From positions 1-30,431 of the IMG/VR virus record IMGVR_UViG_3300035701_000190: 30,431 nt of DNA. One strand, 5' to 3'. Position numbers and translations under genes: made by a program. This DNA comes from a virus. The notes below the pieces were generated by a model that worked only from the letters and a program-made list of their open reading frames with translations, searched no databases and had not been told where the DNA came from. Below, piece by piece: positions 2,996 to 29,810 of the stretch (the first letter of the stretch is position 1; each line of letters opens with the position of its first letter).

Positions 2996-3649
2996 ATGAA
3001 CATTACAAACATAAGTTCGACAACTATCTCCGAGGCGTGGTATAAGTGCCTTAAGGAAATCCTGACTAACGGATATGAGTATAACATTACCTCCGGTAGT
3101 TCGGGTACTGAGGGACAGACACGAAAGGAACTAGACTTTGTGACCATTCAGATTACTAATCCTGGAGTAAGGCCCTTGGTTCCTGATGTGCCAATAGGGA
3201 TGACTCCACCTACCTCGGATGAATATATACAGTCCTATACTGAAGATTACTTGCTATCCTCCACTAAGAGGGATGGAGAAACATATACCTACGGGCAATA
3301 CATAGCCCCCCAATTTGATGCAGTAGTGGCAATGTATCAGACACAAGGTCACAATACCAATCAAGCCACTATCATGGTGGGTAATGAGAACTCGATTTAC
3401 TCAGCCGATCCACCATGTCTTCGCCTAATAGACACACGAATACGATACGGAAAGTTACATTGGGTATGTTATTTCCGGTCATGGGATATGGCAATGGCGA
3501 TGCCAACCAACCTGGGGGGACTACAACTCGCTAAGGAGATGATGGCAGACCTAATAGGAGTAGATGATGGTGAACTCATAGCCTGTAGCAAGGGAGCACA
3601 CGTATATGGAGACGACCTAGAGTATGCACGATTAGTCACCAGGATGTAA
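2996..3649 (+). CDS. thyA: Thymidylate synthase family protein, short form
   Basis: A 217-residue protein starting at ATG 2996 after AGGGGAGG. The family signature is clear: DPPCLRL with the catalytic Cys at 141, RSWD at 161-164 (phosphate-binding Arg/Ser and Asp), Asn172 in MPTNLGG, and AHVY with His202 and Tyr204. These match the dUMP-binding residues of ThyA enzymes, which methylate dUMP to dTMP with methylene-tetrahydrofolate. It is about 50 residues shorter than bacterial ThyA and closer in length to the archaeal-type branch (TIGR03283-like). The YTYGQYI segment also fits that branch. A dUMP or dCMP hydroxymethylase is an alternative, as some phages use ThyA relatives for base modification. 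The dCMP deaminase at 8378 would supply dUMP. Confidence 0.8.
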   Translation: MNITNISSTTISEAWYKCLKEILTNGYEYNITSGSSGTEGQTRKELDFVTIQITNPGVRPLVPDVPIGMTPPTSDEYIQSYTEDYLLSSTKRDGETYTYGQYIAPQFDAVVAMYQTQGHNTNQATIMVGNENSIYSADPPCLRLIDTRIRYGKLHWVCYFRSWDMAMAMPTNLGGLQLAKEMMADLIGVDDGELIACSKGAHVYGDDLEYARLVTRM

Positions 3650-8377: not shown

Positions 8378-8956
8378 ATGACATGGGATTCCTATTTCAT
8401 GGAGATTGCAAAGACAGTCTCTATCAATAGCAAATGTCAGAGTAGGAAAATTGGGGCTGTCATAGTGACCCAGGATAACCGCTTAGTATCATCTGGATAC
8501 AATGGTGCCCCCTCTCATATTGATCCTTGTTACACGAAGGTCTTTCCTATTACAGCACCAGATGGTCATAAGATGTTGATCATACCTGAGGGATCTGATA
8601 TTAAATCCTATGAAACTAATGGACGGTACAGAGAGGACCGTAGAGATGTGGTCCTTAATGAACACAGTGAGTGCCCACGATATGTGGCAGGGTATAGATC
8701 AGGTCAAGGGATGCAATACTGCCCAGCACAGCACGCTGAAGAGAACTGTGTTCACACTGCAGCCCTTCTTGGGGTGGCAACTAGGGGAACCAAGATGTAT
8801 TGCTACTGCCCCACCCCTTGTGTACATTGCTGTGGGGCCATTATTAATGCTGGTATTGTTGAGGTAGTATGCGCTAGTCTAAAAGAATACCAAGATGAAG
8901 TATCATCGTTGGAGATGTTCAAACAGGCAGGAGTAAAGGTTAGGTTAGCAGAGTAG
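8378..8956 (+). CDS. Deoxycytidylate (dCMP) deaminase
   Basis: A 192-residue protein starting at ATG 8378 after GGGGGAGGA. It contains the cytidine-deaminase zinc site: HAE at 119-121 (His ligand, catalytic Glu) and PCVHC at 147-151 (two Cys ligands). SECPRYVAGYRSGQGMQYCP before HAE is the insert typical of phage dCMP deaminases, and it places extra Cys and His residues where a structural second zinc often sits. The enzyme converts dCMP to dUMP, which feeds thymidylate synthase (2996). Phage members are usually regulated by dCTP and dTTP. Distinction from ComEB-type homologs cannot be made by eye, but the activity is the same. Confidence 0.88.
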   Translation: MTWDSYFMEIAKTVSINSKCQSRKIGAVIVTQDNRLVSSGYNGAPSHIDPCYTKVFPITAPDGHKMLIIPEGSDIKSYETNGRYREDRRDVVLNEHSECPRYVAGYRSGQGMQYCPAQHAEENCVHTAALLGVATRGTKMYCYCPTPCVHCCGAIINAGIVEVVCASLKEYQDEVSSLEMFKQAGVKVRLAE

Positions 8957-9384: not shown

Positions 9385-10560
9385 ATGAAAGTTAAGTACA
9401 AGCCAACACATTTTGATGGGGAATGTATATTTGTTTCCGGTCCTATCAGCACCAACTCTTGTAGGGAGTTGGTCAGTGATACAGAGAGGGAGAGAAATGT
9501 ACAGAGAGCTACAGATATCAGTAGGATAATCTTACTGTGTGGTAATGTGCCATATGTCCCCCACTGGGATTACTGGGCAAACAAATATCTGGAAACTCAA
9601 GGAAGAGCATTATCAGCGGATACTCTTATGGGAGTGGATCTTTTTATGATCCCAAAGTGTGACTCCATGTTTAGAATAGCTCCCTCTGCTGGTTCAAACA
9701 TAGAGCGGGGGCTGGCTAAAAGATTGGGGAAAAGAATATACTACAAGCTATCGGATATCCCAAACTATCAGATTTTAGTGGACCGGATAAAGCTTGATTA
9801 TCTCAATGGGGGTATGACTACTGATGAAATAGGAAAGTCTTATGGTCTCAGCGGTAGAAGGATTAGATATATCCTAGCCAAGAATAGTATACCAACCCGT
9901 ACGGTTGGATACAAAAAGACTACAGTAACCCGAACTGATGCTTTTGATAATCTAACTGAGGAGTCATCGTATTGGATCGGTTTCTTAATGGCGGATGGAT
10001 ATGTCAGCCAGACTAGATATGGGACTAAGAGTGTAAAACTAGGATTATCAGCCGATGATAGGGATCATATTCTAAAGTTCAAGGAGTTCTTGGGCACTAC
10101 TGCTAAGGTTGTGGACTATAGAAATCCTACCACCGGATATCGATCTTCACAACTAACAGTGTATGATTCTCATCTAGTGTCGGAGTTGGAGAGGTATGGG
10201 GTAGTACCACATAAAACCTTTATAGCAAAGGCACCCACCTGCCTATTAAAAAATAGGGACTTCTGGAGGGGTTTATTTGATGGTGATGGTAGCATCACCT
10301 TTAGGTCCGAATACCCGATGCTGAAGATGTGTGGATCGGAATCCTTGGTGAATCAATTTCTTGAGTTTGCCAGAGAGTATGCCCCCAGTTGTGGCTCACA
10401 CGTCTACAAAAAAAGTAGCATTTTTGCAGTAGACTTGGCTGGAAATTATGCATGTGAAGTGGCAAAAGCTCTGTATGAAGACAGCAAGATTCATTTGGAG
10501 AGAAAATATCAGCGGTACCTGAAGGTACAGGAATGGTCTGATGCCAGAACCAAGTCTTAG
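9385..10560 (+). CDS. DUF4406-like nucleoside deoxyribosyltransferase-fold protein fused to LAGLIDADG endonuclease
   Basis: A 391-residue protein starting at ATG 9385 after AGGAGG. Residues 1-125 look like a DUF4406/nucleoside 2-deoxyribosyltransferase-type domain: IFVSGPIS at 15-22, a helix, VPYVPHWDYW, the GVDLFMIP strand, and PSAGSNIERGLAKRLGKRIYY, where Glu107 would match the catalytic Glu of the S-x-G-x-x-x-E motif. Residues about 130-170 form a helix-turn-helix segment (GGMTTDEIGKSYGLSGRRIR). Residues about 185-390 hold a two-motif LAGLIDADG endonuclease, YWIGFLMADGY at 196-206 and FWRGLFDGDGSI at 293-304. No intein splicing blocks are present, so this is an in-frame fusion at the C-terminus and not an intein. 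Whether both halves are active is unknown. Confidence 0.75.
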   Translation: MKVKYKPTHFDGECIFVSGPISTNSCRELVSDTERERNVQRATDISRIILLCGNVPYVPHWDYWANKYLETQGRALSADTLMGVDLFMIPKCDSMFRIAPSAGSNIERGLAKRLGKRIYYKLSDIPNYQILVDRIKLDYLNGGMTTDEIGKSYGLSGRRIRYILAKNSIPTRTVGYKKTTVTRTDAFDNLTEESSYWIGFLMADGYVSQTRYGTKSVKLGLSADDRDHILKFKEFLGTTAKVVDYRNPTTGYRSSQLTVYDSHLVSELERYGVVPHKTFIAKAPTCLLKNRDFWRGLFDGDGSITFRSEYPMLKMCGSESLVNQFLEFAREYAPSCGSHVYKKSSIFAVDLAGNYACEVAKALYEDSKIHLERKYQRYLKVQEWSDARTKS

Positions 10561-14374: not shown

Positions 14375-14452
14375 GTGGTAAGGTATAGTACTGTCAAGTA
14401 TGGAACTGATATGTGTCATCAATGTGGTTGTATTGTCTCTAAACAGAAGTGA
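14375..14452 (+). CDS. Probable zinc microprotein coupled to the polymerase gene
   Basis: A frame open from at least 14312 ends at TGA 14450-14452 and encodes KYGTDMCHQCGCIVSKQK at its C-terminus. CHQCGC gives a tight Cys cluster. Its TGA overlaps the polymerase GTG start (GTGA), the coupling geometry used all over this genome, which supports translation. The start is uncertain: GTG 14375 (25 residues) or ATG 14312 (46 residues, with AGGA upstream, overlapping the previous gene). Confidence 0.42.
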   Translation: MVRYSTVKYGTDMCHQCGCIVSKQK

Positions 14453-17400
14453 GAGTGATAGAAATTTTCTGCACCAAATGTCAACTTTACAAGTCCTCTA
14501 AGATCAACAACATTGACGGATGGGGTGATCTTGCCTCCAAGATTCTCATTCTTGGTGAGTCTCCTGGTGAGCAGGAGGAGAGGGATGGCATCCCATTTGT
14601 TGGTGATGCTGGAAAGAAGCTATGGGAGATCCTTGCTAAGTTTGGTGTTACAAGAGATCAGTGTCGTATCGTTAACGTGTTGGGTTGCAGACCCAATAAG
14701 AAGGATAAGAGTCTAGATCTTCTGTCTTGTATCCCACTATGTAGGGAAAACTTCCTTAAGAAGATAGGGGGATGCAATCCTGATATCGTGATCACGTTAG
14801 GGGACCCAGCCCTATTTGCAGTCACTGGTGAAACAAAGATATCTAAACACCGTGGTCTGCATACCTGGGATCAATTCCCCAATGCTAAGGTAGTCTCCAC
14901 TTATCATCCTGCGTACCTACTCTACAGTCACAACCCCACGGCTCAGTCAGATGTGATGGAAGACCTTTCATTAGTCTTTGGTAAGAAGGCTGAGACTGCA
15001 CACTACTACGTGTTAGGGCCAGGGGAAGATCTAACTACTCTCCTGAAGGAAGTTGAATCTAAAGGTTCCTACAGTCTGGATATTGAAACTACATCCCTTG
15101 ACTGGATGTCGGCTAGAATACTATGCGGAGCAGTCTGTCTTGAGCCCTACACTTCCTATACCATTCCTCTACTTGGTAGGTATGCTGCTGATATCTGGAC
15201 CCAGGACGACTTCAACATGGTCGTAAAGTTCTTTCAGAGATTACTATCCATAGAAGCCAGTGTCTGTGGGGATAACATCAAGTTTGATTTCAAATGCCTT
15301 AAGTTTTATGGGGCGGAGTTAAATCCTAAGTCCTTCATTTGGAGTAACGACCTAGCTCATCATTTGATTAGGGAAGAAGATCCACATTCTTTGGATTATC
15401 TAACTTCCCAATATACTGACATGCCACTGTATAAGGACAACTTCCTGAAGCTAGTGGCACAGAATAGTAAGAGAGGCAAAAAGGATTTCTCTGCCCCGCC
15501 AGAAAAAGATCTGTGGATCTACAATGCTAAGGATGCAGATGCCCAGTTGAGAGTTGCTAGAGCACTGTACCCATTGGTCAAAGCAGAGGGATTGTTGGAA
15601 CTGTATGGGACTTTCACGGAGCCCCTTATTCATCAGACGATGGAGTGGGAGATTCATGGTGTCCTAATTGATGTGCCCCTTATGACTCAGGTGAAGACAC
15701 AGCTGCAGGGAGAGAACACAGTCCTAGCTAATGAGATTCGAACTGAGGTTAGCTTACCTGAATTGAACATCGGAAGTGACCAGCAGGTAGCGGATCTTTT
15801 GTTCAATCAAATAGGATTGGAATCCCTTAAGAAGACTAAGGGTAAGAAGAACTCAGTATCTGATAAGGAAGTTCTGATCAAGTATGATGACATTCCTTTG
15901 GTTCATAATATTAGGAACTATCGAAAGAGAAAGACTCTTATCTCGCTGGTAGGCGGGAGCGCGAAGGGCATCCCTAGATTTCTTGATAAGAACAGTAGGG
16001 TACATCCTGAGGCTAAGATTGGTAGGGCCAAGACTGGGAGAGTCACCTACGGAAAACCTACCCTACAAAACATTCCTGACACTAAGTCAATGAGAGGAAT
16101 GATCAAGGCTCCTGAGGGATATTCAATTCTCTCTGGGGACTACTGCTTAGAGGAAGATACTCTTATACAGGTTCCTGGTGGGGATGTACCTATTAAGGAC
16201 ATTAGACCAGGAGACCTAGTAATAAGCTGGAATAAACTCCACTGTCTATCTAAAGTTCTGGCCGTAAGGGATATGGGGTTGCAGCCCTGCTACTATGTCG
16301 GGTTGGACAACGAGAGATCTTTTATTGCGTCTGAGGATCACAAAATGCAGTTAAAATACTGCGGTGGTATGGTAGACCCTGATACTAGGTTAATAAGAGT
16401 TAAAGATCTTGTGGTAGGGGATTCTCTACATCCGTCTAATAGGTCTGTATTTGAAGGTAGAGAGCACTATGGCAGGACTAGTATAAATACTATGGTTAGA
16501 AACTATTATGGGGTCAAGGTAGTACATCACAAGGATGATAATCCATTAAATAATAACCCCTCTAACTGGGAGTTAGGGTGGAGTTCCTCTCAGCATAATA
16601 GTTACCATGCAGCTAGGCAAAATGGTTCTCAATGGGGCGGAAAAGCAGGGAAACACAGAAGTTATGAAGGATGCGGTAATCCCAATTACGGTAAACATGA
16701 GCATAGTCATATAGAGCAGTGCCTGACTTGTGGGGAGCAATTTAGAGTGCCTAATAGTCAGGGAATCAAAGATTCAGGTTATTGTAGTTCTAAGTGCTAT
16801 CATAGCAGTAGAAAAAAAGACAACCATAAAGTGGTATCAAAAGTTTTCGTCGGGCTTAGAAGATGCTTTGACATAGAGGTAGAGAATACTCATAGATTCT
16901 GTCTATCAGCGGGGGTAGTGTCTCATAATTGTCAAATAGAGCTATATATTGCTGCACTGATGAGTCACGATGACGCTATGCTAGCGGCAGTAAGGGATGA
17001 TCTACATAACTACGTGGCTATCAATGTCTTGCATTCCCCGACACACATAGACGAAGGCACGAGAAAAGTGATGGCTGACCCACTATTTCGTAAGAAGGCG
17101 AAGACGTTAAACTTTGGCGTGTGCTTGCCTATGTCAGATGAAATGTTAACTAGAGGCGGATGGAAGAAATATGGCGAAGTATATATCGGAGACGTCATTC
17201 TAGGCTATAATATGTTATCTGGACGAAACGAATGGACAACAGTAGAGGATATTATCTATAACGAGTCCACTCCTATGGTGGAATTCGGCAATGCGAATAC
17301 CAAACTCAAATGCTCGATAGGACATCGGTGGGTTGATAATCATAGGCATACTGGTCTTCCTAAGAGATTAGGAGCTTACTCTAGGTACTATCTTAAAAAG

Positions 17401-18717
17401 CTGTCTGCTGTTGAGGATATTGATGTCGAGTCTAATTTAATTCTGGCATCTCACTCTGACGGAGGAAACTCAGATGTAACAGAAAACGAGGCTGCTATAA
17501 TAGCGTGGCTAATGACAGATGGTAGTATAAAAGGAAACAGCAATACTATTTGGCAAAAGAAAGACAATTTCTGCAGGCATATAGAATGGCTGCTGGATCA
17601 AGAAGATGCGCTAGCTAGTATATATGTTATGTCTAGTGGCGTACTTGGTTATCATCTTACTAGTAGCTACTCTAAGTACCTATGGAATAAGTCTGGTTTG
17701 AATAATGTTACGTTAGACCAATTTATTCTATCATTGAATGAAAAATCTAGGGGAGCTTTCTTGCTGAATGCGTATTATGCTGAGGGAACAGTCTGCAAAA
17801 AGAATAAAAGCAGGGTAATCACTCAAAATGCAGGAGAGCTACTTGACGCTATTAAGCTAGCTGCCTTCTTAGAGGGGTATTTTGTGTCCCAACATAGGAA
17901 TCCGAATAATAGATACCCGTTGTCTACAAGCCAGAAAATAATACTTAGTGATCCAATACTCACTGGGCAAAAGATCAAACTACGAACCTGTGGTTTGGAA
18001 CCTTCCTGGTGCGTGCGTACTGGGTTAGGAACAGTAATAGCCAGGTCAGACAAGTATATGTTTATAACTGGAAACTGCTATGGGGAGACAGAGTGGGGTT
18101 TAAGTAAAAGTATGCCCTGTTCTAAGGATGAAGCCATCGAGTACATAGCTGGATTCTACCGTAGGTTCCCAATGTGGAAGCGCTTTACGGAGGAGATAGC
18201 CAACCAAGTCTACACTAGGAATTATGTTGAGGATATCTATGGGAGGAGGAGACATATCCATCTAACACCGGAGATGTCTCCAATGCAAAGAGCTGCTCTC
18301 CTACGAGAGGCAGTTAACCAACCTATTCAAGGTACAGCAACTGACATCCTGCACTTTGCAGCTATGCGCGTACATAAGAGATTTAAGGAAGAGTTCGGCA
18401 GGGGACTAGCTACTGTCCTCTTTACTCACCATGATGCTATTGTGTGTGAGGTTAGGAATGATGTGCTAGACAGGGCTAAGTATATTATGCTAGAGGAAAT
18501 GCTTAGGCCAATTCCTCAGTTAGGCAACTTCGTTCCTGTAGTGGACCCCGTAACAGGCCCATGCTGGTTTAGTAAGAATGATGATGCTTTTGCGTTAGAA
18601 GAAGCGGAGGTTTTAGATGCCGAAGAAGATGAAGAAGACGAAGACAATACAACCGGAGAAGAAGTCGGAAACGAACAGTCTGGAGGAGATAACGAAGTAT
18701 CTGAAGTCAGCTCTTAA
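14449..18717 (+). CDS. Uracil-DNA glycosylase / 3'-5' exonuclease / family A DNA polymerase fusion with two inteins
   Basis: A 1422-codon precursor starting at GTG 14449; without inteins the protein is 842 residues. Residues 1-180 are a family-4-type uracil-DNA glycosylase: Cys8, Cys11, Cys80 and Cys94/98 as Fe-S cluster ligands, GESPGEQEE at 36-44 and HPAYLL at 153-158. The 3'-5' exonuclease follows, with Asp211 and Glu213 (DIET), Asp280 (NIKFD) and Tyr358/Asp362 (YNAKD). The polymerase part keeps motif A (SGDY before the first intein, CQIEL after), motif B (KTLNFGV before the second, CYGETEWGLS after) and motif C (HHDAIV, Asp1329). In motif C the Glu that usually follows Asp is Ala. The C-terminal tail is extremely acidic and overlaps recA by 101 bases. 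The enzyme is probably the phage replicase. Fusing a glycosylase would let it deal with uracil ahead of or behind synthesis; that is inference. Confidence 0.9.
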   Translation: MRVIEIFCTKCQLYKSSKINNIDGWGDLASKILILGESPGEQEERDGIPFVGDAGKKLWEILAKFGVTRDQCRIVNVLGCRPNKKDKSLDLLSCIPLCRENFLKKIGGCNPDIVITLGDPALFAVTGETKISKHRGLHTWDQFPNAKVVSTYHPAYLLYSHNPTAQSDVMEDLSLVFGKKAETAHYYVLGPGEDLTTLLKEVESKGSYSLDIETTSLDWMSARILCGAVCLEPYTSYTIPLLGRYAADIWTQDDFNMVVKFFQRLLSIEASVCGDNIKFDFKCLKFYGAELNPKSFIWSNDLAHHLIREEDPHSLDYLTSQYTDMPLYKDNFLKLVAQNSKRGKKDFSAPPEKDLWIYNAKDADAQLRVARALYPLVKAEGLLELYGTFTEPLIHQTMEWEIHGVLIDVPLMTQVKTQLQGENTVLANEIRTEVSLPELNIGSDQQVADLLFNQIGLESLKKTKGKKNSVSDKEVLIKYDDIPLVHNIRNYRKRKTLISLVGGSAKGIPRFLDKNSRVHPEAKIGRAKTGRVTYGKPTLQNIPDTKSMRGMIKAPEGYSILSGDYCLEEDTLIQVPGGDVPIKDIRPGDLVISWNKLHCLSKVLAVRDMGLQPCYYVGLDNERSFIASEDHKMQLKYCGGMVDPDTRLIRVKDLVVGDSLHPSNRSVFEGREHYGRTSINTMVRNYYGVKVVHHKDDNPLNNNPSNWELGWSSSQHNSYHAARQNGSQWGGKAGKHRSYEGCGNPNYGKHEHSHIEQCLTCGEQFRVPNSQGIKDSGYCSSKCYHSSRKKDNHKVVSKVFVGLRRCFDIEVENTHRFCLSAGVVSHNCQIELYIAALMSHDDAMLAAVRDDLHNYVAINVLHSPTHIDEGTRKVMADPLFRKKAKTLNFGVCLPMSDEMLTRGGWKKYGEVYIGDVILGYNMLSGRNEWTTVEDIIYNESTPMVEFGNANTKLKCSIGHRWVDNHRHTGLPKRLGAYSRYYLKKLSAVEDIDVESNLILASHSDGGNSDVTENEAAIIAWLMTDGSIKGNSNTIWQKKDNFCRHIEWLLDQEDALASIYVMSSGVLGYHLTSSYSKYLWNKSGLNNVTLDQFILSLNEKSRGAFLLNAYYAEGTVCKKNKSRVITQNAGELLDAIKLAAFLEGYFVSQHRNPNNRYPLSTSQKIILSDPILTGQKIKLRTCGLEPSWCVRTGLGTVIARSDKYMFITGNCYGETEWGLSKSMPCSKDEAIEYIAGFYRRFPMWKRFTEEIANQVYTRNYVEDIYGRRRHIHLTPEMSPMQRAALLREAVNQPIQGTATDILHFAAMRVHKRFKEEFGRGLATVLFTHHDAIVCEVRNDVLDRAKYIMLEEMLRPIPQLGNFVPVVDPVTGPCWFSKNDDAFALEEAEVLDAEEDEEDEDNTTGEEVGNEQSGGDNEVSEVSS
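16144..16929 (+). mobile_element. Intein 1 of the DNA polymerase (HNH type), in motif A
   Basis: A 262-residue intein at precursor residues 566-827. It starts with Cys (CLEEDTLI), has an N3-type block (ASEDHKM) and ends with VVSHN, the canonical His-Asn, before an extein Cys. Its endonuclease carries an HNH-type region: HHKDDNPLNNNPSNWELG starts at residue 693, followed by a zinc-type segment (CLTCGEQF, CSSKCY). The insertion splits motif A between Tyr565 and the next extein residue, beside the catalytic Asp564. The +1 extein residue is Cys where most polymerases have Ser. Confidence 0.9.
17122..18075 (+). mobile_element. Intein 2 of the DNA polymerase (LAGLIDADG type), in motif B
   Basis: A 318-residue intein at residues 892-1209. 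It starts CLPMSDEML and includes the block-B-like KLKCSIGHRW. The endonuclease motifs are IIAWLMTDGSI (about 1017-1027) and LLNAYYAEGTV (about 1105-1115). It ends FITGN before extein Cys1210. The penultimate residue is Gly in place of the usual His. It interrupts the O-helix/motif B loop NFGV-CYGE, the nucleotide-binding part of family A polymerases. Only 64 extein residues separate the two inteins. Confidence 0.9.
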
Positions 18718-19663
18718 GAATGCTGATGTCATGGTAGGTAGTGACCCTTCCCTATCAATTCAACGAATTTCGACGGGGATCAGACAGTTTGATGATATAC
18801 TTGGGGGAGGTCTACCCAAGGGCAGAATTACGATATTTCATGGGGAGGAGTCCAGTGGAAAGTCTTTACTATCTTATCTATGTATCGCTGCTGCTCAGAG
18901 GCAAGGGCTAGTACCAGGATTGGTAGATGTAGAACACTCGTTTGATCCGGTATGGGCACAGGTCTTAGGGATTGATACTAGTAAGTTGATCATAGTTACC
19001 ACCTATACAGGAGAGGATGCATTATCTGCTGCTGAAGAGATGGTTAAGGCAGGAGTAGGAATGGTAGTCCTAGATAGTATCGCAGCTCTACTCCCCACGG
19101 CAGAGGATGAAAGTGCTATGGGAGATCAGAGTATTGGTCTACAACCCAGAATGTTGAATAAGGGGTTGAGGAGAATTACTCAGTCAGCCAATAAGAATGG
19201 AACGGTAATGCTTCTGATCAATCAAGTTAGGGATACGATAGGTAGATTCCCAGGTCTGTCTGGTGTGACAATGCCTGGTGGTAGGGCACAGAAGCATCAT
19301 GCCTCTATCAATGTAAACATAAGTAGGGGACCATCAATCAAAGAAACAGTTAAGGATAAGGACATTAAGATCGGCTACATCATTAGGATGACGACGGTTA
19401 AGAACAAGACATTCCATCCTGTCCTAACATGTGAGTTACCGTTTCTATTTAATGGCAAGCTTGACCTAGAGAAGATGGTTGCTCTCAGAGCTATAGAGTT
19501 AGGGGTAATTAAGAATAGCAAGGGGTATACTTATGAATACCCAGCATTCCCAGATGGTAGGTTGTTGGGAAAAAAGGGATGCATTGATTTTATCACCGAA
19601 CATCCAGAGGTATACGAGGAACTTGCTAAACTAGTTGAAGAGGCAGAGAATAATGATAACTAG
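18617..19663 (+). CDS. recA: RecA-family recombinase
   Basis: A 348-residue protein. ATG 18617 has a strong site (GGAGGTTTT) and lies inside the polymerase gene, overlapping its last 101 bases. Walker A is GEESSGKS (76-83). DVEHSFDP matches the RecA DAEHALDP region, VVLDSIAAL is Walker B, and LLINQVRDTIG plus MPGGRAQKHHAS resemble the L2/core region. The N-terminus (PKKMKKTKT) is rich in lysine. It should form filaments on ssDNA for strand exchange and repair, alongside the nucleases and the RuvC-like resolvase downstream. The C-terminus is acidic, as in bacterial RecA. Confidence 0.92.
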   Translation: MPKKMKKTKTIQPEKKSETNSLEEITKYLKSALKNADVMVGSDPSLSIQRISTGIRQFDDILGGGLPKGRITIFHGEESSGKSLLSYLCIAAAQRQGLVPGLVDVEHSFDPVWAQVLGIDTSKLIIVTTYTGEDALSAAEEMVKAGVGMVVLDSIAALLPTAEDESAMGDQSIGLQPRMLNKGLRRITQSANKNGTVMLLINQVRDTIGRFPGLSGVTMPGGRAQKHHASINVNISRGPSIKETVKDKDIKIGYIIRMTTVKNKTFHPVLTCELPFLFNGKLDLEKMVALRAIELGVIKNSKGYTYEYPAFPDGRLLGKKGCIDFITEHPEVYEELAKLVEEAENNDN

Positions 19664-21747: not shown

Positions 21748-21782
21748 TTACTTTGGAGGTTGATGCGACCGATCCAATTTGA
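21744..21782 (+). other. Twelve-codon frame left at the RuvC gene start
   Basis: ATG 21744 overlaps the previous stop as ATGA, the coupling used throughout this genome, and encodes MITLEVDATDPI before TGA at 21780-21782. The sequence resembles the first strand of a RuvC-fold enzyme (hhxhDxSD), as does VGGIDVDSQQ after the HNH region. It may be the cut-off original start of the resolvase gene. Confidence 0.35.
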
Positions 21783-21807
21783 CTTTTATCAGAGATTATG
21801 ATACAAT
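21779..21807 (+). promoter_or_regulatory. Sigma70-type promoter for the HNH/RuvC fusion
   Basis: TTGACT at 21779-21784, exactly 17 bases of spacer, then TACAAT at 21802-21807. Each hexamer differs from consensus at one base. The expected start point, six to seven bases after the -10, falls on or beside the A of ATG 21815, which suggests a leaderless or nearly leaderless transcript. No ribosome site precedes that ATG. Confidence 0.68.
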
Positions 21808-21814
21808 ACAGATT

Positions 21815-22489
21815 ATGAAGACTTGTAAGATCTGCGGAAAACGGTTGCATACGGGAAAAGTGTATTGCAGTGCTAAGTGCAGCAATTCTGACCCAGTAAA
21901 AGTTTCAGAGAGGGTTACTAAATCTACGGAGTCTAGGAGCAAACAAACCCCAGAGAGAAAAATAGAGATAAGGGATAAAATCTCGGTGGCCAGAAAGAAA
22001 CTTCACATAGTTCCTAGATCTGCATTTCAGAAAGGTCACCGTCCTTGGATTGCTGGAAGAACCAAAAATACTGATGTAAGGGTAAAACAGATGGCAGAAA
22101 AGAGTTCCATTTCCCACATGGGCCAGACCTCTCTTTCCAAGGGGTTTAGTTTTGAGGAGCTGTACGGAGAGGAAAGGGCCGCTAAAATAAAGAATCAGAT
22201 AAGATGCACCTTGAGAGGGGTTAATGATGTCTCTGAAATAGTTGATGATTACTACCCAGCAGTATTCCATCAGGTTAAGCATGTAGTGGCAAGGAGAGAC
22301 GGGGGCATCTGTAAGCTGTGTGGGAAGAATGATGATATATGTGTCCATCATATTAATTACATAAAACAAAACTGTTCATTTTCAAACTTGGTAACTCTAT
22401 GTAGGGGTTGCAATGGGCGAGTTAATAGAGACAGGAACTACTGGTTATCCCACTTTTCTGAGCTAAGCCCCAAGAGCCTCACTAAATGT
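21815..22489 (+). mobile_element. HNH endonuclease segment inserted ahead of the RuvC-like domain
   Basis: This part of the fusion gene (residues 1-225) has its own promoter and no counterpart in ordinary RuvC-like proteins. It keeps the zinc knuckle, NUMOD-like stretch and HNH residues. The upstream 12-codon frame and the absence of a ribosome site before the RuvC part suggest insertion at the 5' end of the resolvase gene. Confidence 0.6.
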
Positions 22490-22975
22490 AGAGTAGGAGG
22501 GATCGACGTAGATAGCCAGCAGTTAACCCTAGTGCTGACTGAGAACAACGAGTTCGTTACACATATACATATTGATGGTGGGAAGGGAACTTGGGAGGAT
22601 AGGATCTATAACATTGCATCCAAATTTGATCAGCTCATTGATACTGGGGCACTAGATGGTACTGTATTAATAGCAATAGAGGAACCCATAATGGTGCAAA
22701 ACCCCCTAACCACTATGAAATTAGCAGAGGCATATGCCTTAGTGTGGTTCATTTTGCATAATCATAGTATCCCATACATACCTGTTGGGAACCGTACCTG
22801 GAAGAAGGATATGCTAGGAGATGGGAAAATAGGAAAAGACGGAATACGAGAATGGGTAATTTCTCTGGAAAATTTTCCTATCGATATCAAGGAACAACAT
22901 TACTATGACAGCTGTGTGTTAAGCCTATGGTGTGCTCGATACGGTGAAACCAAGCTAAGTTTATTAGTTGTATAA
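21815..22975 (+). CDS. HNH homing endonuclease fused to a RuvC-like Holliday junction resolvase
   Basis: A 386-residue protein from ATG 21815; the frame is open upstream to 21779. Residues 4-22 hold a zinc knuckle (CKIC, CSAKC). A NUMOD-like basic stretch (about 45-110) follows, then an HNH core at about 166-206: CKLCGKNDDICVHHINY and LVTLCRGCN. After residue 226 the sequence becomes a RuvC-like domain: GGIDVDSQQ with Asp231, IAIEEP with Glu289/290, a GKIGKDGIREWV segment and YYDSCVLSLW with Asp365. This matches the D-E-D metal-binding order of RuvC enzymes, which cut Holliday junctions. The RuvC part alone is about 160 residues, the usual size. The fused endonuclease has its own promoter. 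Whether the two parts are separated in the cell (internal start, splicing, proteolysis) is unknown. Confidence 0.78.
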   Translation: MKTCKICGKRLHTGKVYCSAKCSNSDPVKVSERVTKSTESRSKQTPERKIEIRDKISVARKKLHIVPRSAFQKGHRPWIAGRTKNTDVRVKQMAEKSSISHMGQTSLSKGFSFEELYGEERAAKIKNQIRCTLRGVNDVSEIVDDYYPAVFHQVKHVVARRDGGICKLCGKNDDICVHHINYIKQNCSFSNLVTLCRGCNGRVNRDRNYWLSHFSELSPKSLTKCRVGGIDVDSQQLTLVLTENNEFVTHIHIDGGKGTWEDRIYNIASKFDQLIDTGALDGTVLIAIEEPIMVQNPLTTMKLAEAYALVWFILHNHSIPYIPVGNRTWKKDMLGDGKIGKDGIREWVISLENFPIDIKEQHYYDSCVLSLWCARYGETKLSLLVV

Positions 22976-25623: not shown

Positions 25624-25908
25624 ATGAGTATGCTTAACTTTGATAAGATAAGCCAGTGGAAGCACCTGGAGTTTAGCCACCATGTTGACGAGTTTACTAT
25701 CTCTCTGTGGTGGTATCGACTCATTATTACTACTCCACGTATACATGATCATTCAACCTACGTGGGAGATAGGATTTTTCTGGAGTATGTAAATGATTAC
25801 AATTGGTTTGATGTAGGACTGCACCTTAATTCAGGGTGCTGCAGTTTTGAACTCGGAAAGTTTATGTTCTATCTATACAGAATGGGTATTGAAAAGGTCG
25901 GCAGATAG
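25624..25908 (+). CDS. Small hypothetical protein between terminase genes
   Basis: A 94-residue protein starting at ATG 25624, two bases after the TerS-like stop. It is rich in aromatic residues and His (SQWKHLEFSHHVDEFTISLW, LWWYRLIITTP) and ends in a helix (FELGKFMFYLYRMG). Its stop TAG shares a base with the terminase GTG start. It may assist packaging or be a cargo gene. Family not recognised. Confidence 0.58.
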   Translation: MSMLNFDKISQWKHLEFSHHVDEFTISLWWYRLIITTPRIHDHSTYVGDRIFLEYVNDYNWFDVGLHLNSGCCSFELGKFMFYLYRMGIEKVGR

Positions 25909-28900
25909 TGGCAGGTAAGAAAGAACTCATTAGTATATCTCAGGCATTTGCTAACATAGCAGACGCTCTGGAGACTAGATCTGGAGACAATGTTGTTTAC
26001 TATCCAGAATATCAGAATAATCCTAACGGATTTCTGAAGGATGTCTTGGGTATTGATCAATGGGAAATACCTAGCCAGATTATTGATTCCGTCTGGGCTA
26101 ATGGTAGGACTACGGTAAGATCCTGCCATGCTAGTAGCAAGTGTGTAGACGAGAATGAGTGGGTGTATCTGGCTAACGGGAGAGAGAGAGCAAAGGACCT
26201 CGTAAATAAATCATTTGATTTATATACCATTGACCAGGGATACCCCAAGAAAACTGTGGCTGGTGCGGTACCGAATGGGATACAGAGATGTTTCAAATTG
26301 GAAACCGAGTCCGGGTTCTCATGCACTAGGACATTTAACCATCCTCTCTATATGAAGGAATCGAGGAGATTGTCTCGCGGAGAGTGGAAAGAGATAGAAA
26401 AGACAGAAGTAGGGGAGTATGTTGCTGTGGTAGATGAATACCCTTCAGACTGCACGTCTCTTGTTTCTGACGATCTAGTTAAAGTACTTGCGTACATGAT
26501 CACGGAAGGCTATACTAAGGCCGGGATGTGTCAGTTTACCCAAAACGAGGGGAAAGTATTAGATGACTTTATAGGCAGCTGTGCTAGACTAGGCTACAAA
26601 TATAACAGGGGCAGCAAAACCATTGCTAGGGATACCTCACAGGTAACCTTTGGGAACCTAATGGCTAAATATAACTTAAGGCAGTTGTCTGATAGGAAGT
26701 TTATTCCTGATATCATATTCTCCCTACCTAAGAGACAACAGGCATTATTTCTATCCTGTATGTACTCCTGCGATGGCTGGATTTCTACGGGTAAGAAATA
26801 CGATACAAAAAAGTCAGGTGAGGGTGTTACGGTTATTGGGTATGTCTCTAAATCAGAAACCTTAGTGAGGGACCTTAAGACGCTACTACTACGATTTGGT
26901 ATTTTCTCTAGGATCGGATGTTGGAGCCACTCTTGGACACACAAAGGAGAGAAAAAATCAGGTAACTATTGGCATTTGAATATATGGAGAAAGAGAGATA
27001 CATTACGTTTTAATCAAGAAATATCAGTACTAGGTAAAGAGTACAGACAGCAGACACAAAGTAGACGAGCAGGGTGCAAAGCACAGAAGGGCAGAGGTGA
27101 TTCCTATTGGTCAATGTGGGGTCTACCGAGCTGCCTCAGGTGGGAGAAAGTTACTAAGATCGAGGATGTGGGTAATAGGAAAACCGTAGCGATAACTGTT
27201 CCAGAAACAGGTACGTTCCTATCTGAATTCTATGAACATAACTCGTTCTCAGCTGCAGCTATTGCCCTTACATTCTTACATACCTATCGTCCCTCTACTG
27301 TGATTACTACCGCTCCTGGTGGACGACAGGCTAAGGAAGTGATCTGGGCAGAAATTCATGACATCTATCACAAGGCGAAGAAACCCCTAGGGGGAAGACT
27401 GCTTCAAACTAAACTGTCTATGAGTGAGACGGAGAAGTGGGTTGGACTTGGATTTGCAGTTGATGAAGATAGACCAGAAACGCTACAGGGCTACCATAAC
27501 CAAAATATACTTATAATCGTAGACGAGGCGTGTTTCCGATCTGATACTGAGATCCTTACTAATAATGGCTGGAAATATTTTCAAGACCTAACCTTGGGGG
27601 ACCTAGTAGCAACTAAGGATGGCCCAGGTGGGGTTATGTATTACAGCCAGCCAACTGAATATCATGTGTACCCGTACAGGGGGTATATGAAGGAAGTGGA
27701 CATTAAGGGGTGTAATTTTTCTATCACTCCGAACCATAATCTATTTGCTGGTTTTAGGACTGCTACAACTGGGGAAGTTAATTGGGCACTGCGAAAAGTA
27801 GGGGACATCCCTAACTCCAAGGTCTCTATAATGGGGAGAACTTTGAACTGGACTGGAGAAAAAAGACAGGAATATACTATCAAAGGTTACGCTGGTGTGA
27901 GGAAAACATGGGATGACATAACTGTTCCTATGAAACCCTGGTGCAGATTTCTTGGGTGGTATCTATCCGAGGGCTGCTGCGACAGCAGCGGCTATGCCGT
28001 ATCTATTACGCAGAAGTATAGGGATAAAATAGATGACATAGAAAAGTGTATCACTGATTTGGGTCTGCCCTACAAGGAATACAGCAGAAAAGTACCTGGT
28101 GGCAGCACTGAAATAAGGATACAATCACGACCCCTAGTCGAAGAGCTGTCTCAGTTAGGAAAGTGTCTGAATAAGAGAGTACCGCAATATTTACGAGAGC
28201 TATCTCCTGAATTAATAGAGGAGTTTTTGGATGCATTTAGGATGGGAGACGGGTATAAGAAGAACAATGTGGACGTATACTACACTTCATCAAAAGAGCT
28301 AGCAACTGATTTACATGAACTGTGCCTAAAAACTGGGTATACATCATTTATGCATAAGAGAAGGCTGTTAGGAAAGAGCACATGGATCAAAGATCATACC
28401 GTCAGAGCCTCTGTAGATGGATTCGTAGTAACTAGAAGTAAAGAACGATCTAATATTTGGTTACACATGAATAGTGTTAAAGATGTACATTATGAGGGTA
28501 ATGTCTACTGCGTTTCGGTAGAACCTCATCATCTAATCTTTACGAGAAGAAATGGATACTGTATGTGGTCTGGAAACTCAGGTGTAGCTAGACCTATCTT
28601 TGAAGCCATTGAAGGATTGCTGTCCTCTGGTAGGCTGGTAAGACTATTACTTATCGGGAACCCCAATGACGAAGCCACATTATTTGGCGATAGTTTTAGG
28701 GAGGGGTCTATATATACTACCTTTCATATCAGCGCCTTCGATACCCCAAATTTTACAGCATACGGGGTCACAGAAGAGGACTTTAAAAATACGACATGGA
28801 AAGATAAGATCACTGGCCCTTTACCACGCCCCTATCTTACATCGCCTGAGTGGGCCTACAACATGTATAAGACCTATGGTCCAGACAGCCCTCTCTATAT

Positions 28901-29810
28901 GGTGAGGGTCAGGGGAGATTTCCCACCTATCTCAGAGGACACGTTAATTCCTCTTCCGTGGATAGAGAAGGCTACTGATGCAAAGTTGATAGGAGGTGTT
29001 GAAGATAAGACATGGTTAGGAGTGGATGTAGCTCGATTCGGTACAGATGAAAGTGTTCTTACCGTGAGAAAAGGTGACACAACTCTACTACAAAAAGCTT
29101 ATAACTCCCTAGATGGGTTCTTCCTAGCAGATAAGGTTGAAGAGATCATGTCTGAGTTTGGAATCGATGCCTCTCAAGTTAACGTAGATGAGATTGGTAT
29201 TGGTGGGTCCCCTATTGACTTCCTACGTCATCGTGAAAAGTATGTGAAAGCCATTAACGCATCCTCTAAGGCATCAGATACTACTATGTATGTGAATACT
29301 AGGGCGGAGATGTATTACACATTGAGAAATAGATTTAAGAGTGGGACCATATCTATCCCCAAGTCTGACCTACTTATTGATGAGCTGAGTAAGATCAAGT
29401 ACAAGTTTAGTAACGGTAAGATACAAATAGAAGACAAGAAAGAAATGAAGAAGCGAATAGGGAAGTCTCCTGATCGGGCCGATTCTATCGCTATGGCCTA
29501 CTATGAGCCTAAGGGGGCTCCATTGGCAGACCTGGGTTCACTGCAGAGACCAAAGAGTGACCCTAATACAGACCCACGTACAAAGATCTACGATGATGAT
29601 ACCTACAGTGATAGAATAAACAGCCTGTTCAAAGCTGAGGTACCTGAAGATGTAGATAAGTGCCCGAAGTGTGATACTCATATTGGCTTAGAGTATCGTG
29701 CTAGGGGAGTAAGGTCTAATGAAAAAGAGGGTATGGAAAAGTTATGTCTTATCTGTCGCACCAAATGGTCGAGAGAGGGGCATACCTGGGTGGAGAAAAT
29801 AGTTGACTAA
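25908..29810 (+). CDS. terL: Large terminase subunit with two inteins
   Basis: A 1300-codon precursor starting at GTG 25908; without inteins it is 584 residues. The ATPase part has SCHASSK, which becomes SCHASSKSFSAA after splicing (Walker A with Lys78 and Ser446), and IIVDEA with Asp539 and Glu540 (Walker B and catalytic Glu), followed by SGVARPIF. The nuclease part keeps three acidic motifs: GVDVARFG (Asp1040), NVDEIG (Asp1094) and DRADSIAM (Asp1192), as in RNase H-fold terminases. An extra C-terminal zinc ribbon (Cys1252, Cys1255, Cys1280, Cys1283) is unusual and could bind DNA or the portal. The protein powers DNA packaging and cuts the concatemer. Both inteins must splice before it can hydrolyse ATP. 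A promoter overlaps its final codons. Confidence 0.92.
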   Translation: MAGKKELISISQAFANIADALETRSGDNVVYYPEYQNNPNGFLKDVLGIDQWEIPSQIIDSVWANGRTTVRSCHASSKCVDENEWVYLANGRERAKDLVNKSFDLYTIDQGYPKKTVAGAVPNGIQRCFKLETESGFSCTRTFNHPLYMKESRRLSRGEWKEIEKTEVGEYVAVVDEYPSDCTSLVSDDLVKVLAYMITEGYTKAGMCQFTQNEGKVLDDFIGSCARLGYKYNRGSKTIARDTSQVTFGNLMAKYNLRQLSDRKFIPDIIFSLPKRQQALFLSCMYSCDGWISTGKKYDTKKSGEGVTVIGYVSKSETLVRDLKTLLLRFGIFSRIGCWSHSWTHKGEKKSGNYWHLNIWRKRDTLRFNQEISVLGKEYRQQTQSRRAGCKAQKGRGDSYWSMWGLPSCLRWEKVTKIEDVGNRKTVAITVPETGTFLSEFYEHNSFSAAAIALTFLHTYRPSTVITTAPGGRQAKEVIWAEIHDIYHKAKKPLGGRLLQTKLSMSETEKWVGLGFAVDEDRPETLQGYHNQNILIIVDEACFRSDTEILTNNGWKYFQDLTLGDLVATKDGPGGVMYYSQPTEYHVYPYRGYMKEVDIKGCNFSITPNHNLFAGFRTATTGEVNWALRKVGDIPNSKVSIMGRTLNWTGEKRQEYTIKGYAGVRKTWDDITVPMKPWCRFLGWYLSEGCCDSSGYAVSITQKYRDKIDDIEKCITDLGLPYKEYSRKVPGGSTEIRIQSRPLVEELSQLGKCLNKRVPQYLRELSPELIEEFLDAFRMGDGYKKNNVDVYYTSSKELATDLHELCLKTGYTSFMHKRRLLGKSTWIKDHTVRASVDGFVVTRSKERSNIWLHMNSVKDVHYEGNVYCVSVEPHHLIFTRRNGYCMWSGNSGVARPIFEAIEGLLSSGRLVRLLLIGNPNDEATLFGDSFREGSIYTTFHISAFDTPNFTAYGVTEEDFKNTTWKDKITGPLPRPYLTSPEWAYNMYKTYGPDSPLYMVRVRGDFPPISEDTLIPLPWIEKATDAKLIGGVEDKTWLGVDVARFGTDESVLTVRKGDTTLLQKAYNSLDGFFLADKVEEIMSEFGIDASQVNVDEIGIGGSPIDFLRHREKYVKAINASSKASDTTMYVNTRAEMYYTLRNRFKSGTISIPKSDLLIDELSKIKYKFSNGKIQIEDKKEMKKRIGKSPDRADSIAMAYYEPKGAPLADLGSLQRPKSDPNTDPRTKIYDDDTYSDRINSLFKAEVPEDVDKCPKCDTHIGLEYRARGVRSNEKEGMEKLCLICRTKWSREGHTWVEKIVD
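26142..27242 (+). mobile_element. Terminase intein 1 (LAGLIDADG type), inside Walker A
   Basis: A 367-residue intein at residues 79-445. It starts with Cys (CVDENEWVYLANG), has the TFNHP block-B element and ends FYEHN before Ser446. LAGLIDADG motifs are VLAYMITEGYT (about 193-203) and FLSCMYSCDGWI (about 281-291). It splits Walker A between the Lys and the Ser, so the unspliced precursor lacks a nucleotide-binding loop. Confidence 0.92.
27531..28577 (+). mobile_element. Terminase intein 2 (LAGLIDADG type), directly after Walker B
   Basis: A 349-residue intein at residues 542-890. It starts CFRSDTEILTNNGW, has the ITPNHNL block-B element and ends MWSGN before Ser891. LAGLIDADG motifs are FLGWYLSEGCC (681-691) and FLDAFRMGDGYK (773-784). 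The penultimate residue is Gly, not His, as in polymerase intein 2. It separates Walker B (VDEA) from SGVARP. Only 96 extein residues lie between the two terminase inteins. Confidence 0.92.

Follow-up and report, generated by a model that had tools for sequence, protein, structure and literature searches.

A family-4-type uracil-DNA glycosylase domain at the head of a double-intein family A DNA polymerase from a virus

What does a glycosylase do at the front of a viral DNA polymerase? The question is raised by an open reading frame at 14449-18717 of a 30,431-base contig, itself a fragment, from a virus of bacteria or archaea (IMG/VR record IMGVR_UViG_3300035701_000190; this whole stretch is called the window below, and the polymerase frame with all its parts, as well as the deaminase, thymidylate synthase and recombinase genes, lie on its plus strand). 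The frame starts with GTG and encodes 1422 residues without an internal stop. An initial annotation, made from the sequence alone, had read it as a single chain that joins a uracil-DNA glycosylase (UDG) to a proofreading exonuclease and a family A polymerase, and matches in Pfam, PHROG, NCBIfam and the PDB, all within this single open frame, bear that reading out. The UDG domain (residues 1-178, 14449..14982) is recognised by Pfam UDG over residues 25-173 (3.4e-25, 89.2 bits against a cut-off of 24.3), and its best PDB matches are Thermotoga maritima TM0511 (1vk2; 1.2e-25 to 1.5e-25) and Thermus thermophilus UDG (1ui0; 2.6e-22); the match is far above chance. Two NCBIfam family-4 models also match, each under its curated cut-off (TIGR00758: 1.6e-29, 102.9 bits against 125.3; NF040953: 1.5e-30, 106 bits against 250). 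Because the superfamily cut-off of Pfam is passed and those of the family-4 models are not, we file the domain as a family-4-type member of the UDG superfamily and not as a strict family-4 equivalog.

The 3'-5' proofreading exonuclease follows at about residues 186-380 (15004..15588; Pfam DNA_pol_A_exo1, 1.5e-11, residues 193-376), and its D211, E213 and D362 are invariant in 29 relatives. The family A polymerase claimed from its Pol I motifs is confirmed (Pfam DNA_pol_A, 1.4e-58), in three pieces, the best stretch being 1208-1351, since two inteins interrupt it. PHROG phrog_17 (DNA polymerase) matches at 1.1e-86, and its best stretch, residues 30-565, includes the UDG part. An AlphaFold model of residues 1-565 has a mean pLDDT of 88.6 and a pTM of 0.68, with the UDG stretch mostly at 80-98 except for the first residues. 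Foldseek returned mostly Klenow-type polymerases from the PDB, with no separate UDG entry among the best 50 matches, and phage PolA proteins from BFVD. The order UDG, exonuclease, family A polymerase in a single chain is that of the SPO1 and PaBG polymerases. The frame belongs to this known kind and probably encodes a tailed virus's replicative DNA polymerase.

The polymerase domain is broken at two of its core motifs. Its first piece (15619..16143; Pfam DNA_pol_A and orthologue alignment) ends in motif A at ILSGDY, where intein 1 (residues 566-827, 262 amino acids, 16144..16929) is inserted between SGDY and CQIEL. This element carries a Hint splicing domain and an HNH homing endonuclease (Pfam Hint_2 2.9e-5 and HNH_3 3.3e-4, both under cut-off), starts with Cys and ends in HN before the extein Cys. 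The second piece (16930..17121), located by orthologue alignment, runs from motif A to motif B (CQIELYIAAL to LNFGV) and leads into intein 2 (residues 892-1209, 318 amino acids, 17122..18075), inserted in motif B between NFGV and CYGET. Intein 2 ends in GN before Cys and is of the LAGLIDADG type, with a weak Pfam match to LAGLIDADG_3 (0.073, under cut-off); Pfam finds a Hint domain in intein 1 only. The third piece (18076..18585; Pfam DNA_pol_A) supplies the remainder of motif B and the motif C sequence HHDAI. Both insertions have Cys1, an Asn-Cys end and an in-frame extein joint as in an intein-free homologue, which marks them as inteins, and splicing is predicted; computed removal of both leaves 842 residues. 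An acidic tail of about 43 residues closes the chain (18586-18717), and its DNA overlaps, in another frame, the basic start of the RecA/UvsX frame. The terminase large subunit (25908-29810) apparently also holds two inteins, judged by eye together with intein and LAGLIDADG matches, at Walker A (after ASSK, before SFS) and Walker B (after VDEA, before SGV), which would bring the 30 kb fragment to four. Inteins near motif B occur in other UDG-PolA genes (L056, L092, L097 and L098), at sites unlike those of the window.

The splice joints were confirmed by an intein-free orthologue, L024/L027, a polymerase of 798 residues on IMG/VR contig 3300005613_000020 (96.9 kb) that is 41% identical to the window protein across the whole chain and aligns with it without a break at both joints. 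At the first site it reads uninterrupted DYSQAEL and at the second NFGIAYGMTEFG. It was reached through a scan with the neighbouring RecA gene; peptide-pattern scans of viral and genome contigs with the N-terminal 568 residues found no relative, a profile from 9 diverse phage sequences gave no usable conserved stretch and a DNA-level search of phage records gave no match. The UDG domain is the most conserved part between the two proteins (47% identity, against 38% for the exonuclease and 42% for the polymerase). The AlphaFold model of the whole L024 enzyme (pLDDT 89.5, pTM 0.87) suggests an arrangement of the three domains that can be taken with fair confidence. RecA, ribonucleotide reductase (RNR) and deaminase genes are also near the L024/L027 gene, which differs from that of the window in having neither inteins nor, when the ends are compared, the acidic tail.

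The window domain shares with stand-alone family-4 UDGs (T. thermophilus UDGa, 1ui0, here TTUDGA, and T. maritima TM0511) the fold, the four Fe-S cysteines, the GExPG motif, Asn80 and HPAYLL; it departs from them in Lys85 for Asn89 by ungapped spacing, Tyr159 for Arg161, the polymerase fusion and the scores under the NCBIfam cut-offs. The annotation had given the Fe-S cysteines as 8, 11, 80 and either 94 or 98. C8, C11 and C80 align with cysteines of both reference enzymes, and the fourth ligand is C98, which sits 13 residues ahead of the Pro of the next strand exactly as in TM0511, and not C94. The GESPGEQEE and HPAYLL motifs are present as described. E37 (GESPG), N76 and H153 correspond to TTUDGA E41, N80 and H155; among 35 Fe-S active sequences, motif A has the Ser variant in six and the Glu in all. 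In 29 diverse fused sequences, G36, E37, P39, G40, E43, N76, H153 and P154 are all invariant; the search pattern took in part of motif A, and N76, H153 and P154 lie outside it.

Two changes at the active site had escaped the annotation. Lys85, nine residues past the invariant Asn76, stands by ungapped spacing (CRPNKKD) where T. thermophilus UDG has its catalytic Asn89; a gapped alignment instead sets N83 there. The orthologue L024 also has Lys at this place (CRPKSKK). Where Asn80 is present, in 67 fused sequences, the place is taken by Asn in 57, by Lys in three (window, L024/L027 and MaInes) and by E, D, G, P or L in the others; in a second set Asn is found in 29 of 31. Motif B closes with an Arg (HPxxLLR), which L024 retains; in the window Tyr159 stands there instead (HPAYLLY), a residue that none of the other Fe-S active sequences has. 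The related enzyme UdgX gives a measure of what such changes may mean: its catalytic residues are the Glu of motif A, the TNAV Asn and the His of motif B, its His109 takes the role of TthUDG Asn89, its motif-B Arg binds DNA, and the H109K variant, with Lys at the equivalent position, has almost no activity remaining (PMC10359453). UdgX itself is defined by a GEQPG motif A and a KRRIH loop with the covalent His109 (PMC10359453); the window domain has GESPG and neither the loop nor the His, and membership of that group is ruled out. The annotation's view that the site is preserved thus holds for the motifs it named and not for the entire site. Of the two findings that it said would overturn its reading, the lack of a significant UDG match does not apply, and an active site without key residues applies in part, as E37, N76 and H153 remain but Lys85, by ungapped spacing, and Tyr159 replace Asn89 and the motif-B Arg. 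On these residues, we consider glycosylase activity of the window domain plausible, not assured.

The fusion is not peculiar to the window. In gp31 of the hydroxymethyluracil phage SPO1 of Bacillus, a UDG-like N-terminal stretch is likewise joined to an exonuclease-polymerase, but its active site is altered (ENPF, and Ser for Asn80), its Fe-S cysteines are lost and its gene is broken by an intron with a homing endonuclease where that of the window is broken by inteins. The DNA polymerase I (gp205) of the jumbo phage PaBG ('Lupandier'), whose single chain runs from an N-terminal UDG through a 3'-5' exonuclease to a family A polymerase and was modelled on T. thermophilus UDG 1ui0, was published in 2020 together with the same fusion in PaBG kin (PMC7412058). 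Its differences from the window case are that these are jumbo myoviruses and that the passages on gp205 make no mention of inteins; the authors did not uncover the wider family by BLASTP (PMC7412058). Searching viral sequences with a profile of the UDG and exonuclease parts, we confirmed 406 relatives and retained 80 of them. A second scan, blind to the UDG and using only the exonuclease-polymerase part, gave 80 loci, 77 of them assessable: both UDG motifs are present in 30, the UDG scores as degenerate in 18 (a few of which are merely cut at the 5' end) and 29 have no UDG, so that 48 of 77 are fused. Among named phages the fusion, whether intact or degenerate, occurs for instance in PMBT14, Serbin, Lebethron, Mel-JY34, MaInes, SPO1 and vir526. 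From these counts and the PaBG paper (PMC7412058), the fusion is already known and common; to it the window contributes an example with two inteins and, by ungapped spacing, an unusual Lys where the catalytic Asn would be expected. In the open-access literature searched, we did not find repeated loss of the active site under selection, an intact Fe-S-free clade or Lys at the catalytic Asn.

The surroundings of the gene bear on whether uracil is a plausible target. The dCMP deaminase that the annotation had reported in the same virus is real (8378-8956; Pfam dCMP_cyt_deam_1, 1.5e-18) and would be a source of dUMP. The window also encodes a thymidylate synthase of the methanogen type (2996-3649; TIGR03283, 7.2e-26, under cut-off; Pfam Thymidylat_synt, 6.9e-10; alignment) that keeps the Asn at the dUMP-reading position (PTNLG); the deaminase therefore fits an ordinary route from dCMP through dUMP to dTMP and alone is no evidence of uracil trouble. 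The gene after the polymerase is a RecA/UvsX recombinase (18617..19663; Pfam RecA, 1.5e-57), and a primase, an SSB-like protein, a Cas4-like nuclease and a B12-dependent RNR are also present. A dUTPase, for which the annotation had advised a search, is found neither as the trimeric (PF00692) nor as the dimeric form (PF08761), whether in this 30 kb contig or in the 96.9 kb one that carries L024/L027; both are fragments, and the gene may lie elsewhere in the genome. Across related records a dUTPase scores above cut-off in 6 of 49, including a T5-like record with a degenerate UDG. This scarcity fits uracil surveillance but is only suggestive, the records being fragmentary and a base rate for fusion-free phages lacking. 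In 15 of 31 Fe-S-type active relatives a dCMP deaminase gene is found no more than about 6 kb away from the polymerase; the Fe-S-free group has none so placed.

Other genes of the window and of its relatives deserve a brief comment. Thymidylate-synthase homologues beside UDG-PolA genes (L004, L006, L008, L016, L020 and L002) have Asp where dUMP enzymes have Asn; they include those of PMBT14, Serbin, Lebethron, Yakult, a Desulfofustis phage and MW202455, and the change suggests, by sequence, a dCMP hydroxymethylase and modified cytosine. We considered whether a broken UDG goes with hydroxymethyl-pyrimidine synthesis and found no simple correlation, as MW202455 has the Asp change yet an intact UDG. 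The frame at 21779-22975 of the window encodes a resolvase that resembles RuvC; its N-terminal half contains an HNH region, it matches an IscB model weakly (NF040563, 6.8e-7), and it may be an HNH frame joined to RuvC. The C-terminal part of that at 9385-10560 is homing-endonuclease-like (phrog_4645, LAGLIDADG_3), and its N-terminus has a weak match to nucleoside 2-deoxyribosyltransferase.

We suggest, with confidence that stands at the midpoint, that the N-terminal domain derives from Fe-S family-4 UDGs, inspects the DNA beside the polymerase and takes out uracil, perhaps with low activity in the window member. The two inteins would splice out to leave the 842-residue replicase with the UDG domain as a working part; the domain would scan DNA near the polymerase and flip uracil out, and the uracil would be excised, or in the window member perhaps excised slowly. 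Excision would be timed at the fork and its product passed to host repair, and would keep uracil low in a phage whose dCMP deaminase yields dUMP and in whose record no dUTPase is seen. Uracil surveillance at the fork is on this account possible. The proposal is based on the order of the domains within one frame, the splice joints, the kept and invariant residues, the conservation of the domain, selection in relatives and the dUTPase and deaminase context. Support also comes from a clade of 29 relatives (L053 to L105, support 93) in an exonuclease-polymerase tree, in which all four Fe-S cysteines are gone together and E, N80, N89 and H are retained throughout; retention of the catalytic residues points to selection for catalysis there. 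The clade can be described as an Fe-S-free family-4-like UDG. Against the proposal stand Lys85, Tyr159, the UdgX H109K result and the loss of the active site in several lineages that keep the domain.

That loss speaks for a different role. On the same tree, which was quickly built and contains several long branches that make single placements unsure, the UDG active site changes between intact and broken at least nine times, and 18 of the 48 fused domains score as degenerate, a few of them through 5' truncation. PMBT14, Serbin and Lebethron have all the Fe-S cysteines but GDNPN or GDAPN in motif A and Pro at Asn80. The domain is nevertheless under strong selection: in close pairs of relatives its dN/dS is 0.02-0.20, comparable with the exonuclease-polymerase, and in the T5-like pair L054/L059, whose UDG is fully degenerate, it is 0.031 against 0.036 for the exonuclease-polymerase part, a sign of strong purifying selection. 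The domain is thus selected for its active site in many lineages and for something else in others, and repeated loss of the active site under such selection argues for a function independent of catalysis as well. The domain might then be mainly a DNA-binding or processivity module in which catalysis is optional and has repeatedly decayed, and in the window may be failing already (K85, Y159). Vaccinia D4 offers the analogy, as a UDG physically tied to the viral replicase that serves as a processivity subunit and has a replication role independent of catalysis (PMC1936997, PMC10253040). D4 is, however, of another UDG family, is linked to the polymerase E9 through A20 and is not a homologous fusion; E, N and H are also kept without exception in many lineages, and a mere DNA clamp would not need them. 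We rank this explanation second, below even credence. Broader still, and rather unlikely in our estimate, is that the fused UDG fold serves family A replicases throughout the tailed phages as an integral DNA-binding or processivity element, an independent parallel to D4, in which excision is optional, often lost and, in the window lineage, altered by Lys in place of the catalytic Asn. The uracil-removing and DNA-holding roles are compatible and both can be true; alongside catalysis, the fused domain probably also binds DNA as part of the replicase.

Two further explanations fare less well. Phages with uracil in their DNA exist and a UDG is active on such DNA, and the domain could act on uracil-rich DNA of the host or of competitor phages, or on uracil left by host enzymes, instead of at its own fork. 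Being fused to the replicase, however, suggests a part in replicating the phage itself, and the window offers no support for an offensive role, which makes this improbable. Least probable of all, and already disfavoured, is a functionless relic carried along by an essential polymerase. In its favour, two positions of catalysis or DNA contact are changed in the window, but the UDG is the most conserved of the three domains between the window and L024, dN/dS is far under 1 in all measurable pairs of relatives, and the 29 of 77 PolA relatives without a UDG show that the domain can be absent.

Many phages replicate with family A polymerases, and many of these enzymes begin with a DNA-repair glycosylase. 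The relatives surveyed supply natural variants, namely intact, Fe-S-free intact, Fe-S-bearing but broken, fully degenerate and UDG-free, and these allow one to ask whether the domain serves uracil removal, DNA holding or both.
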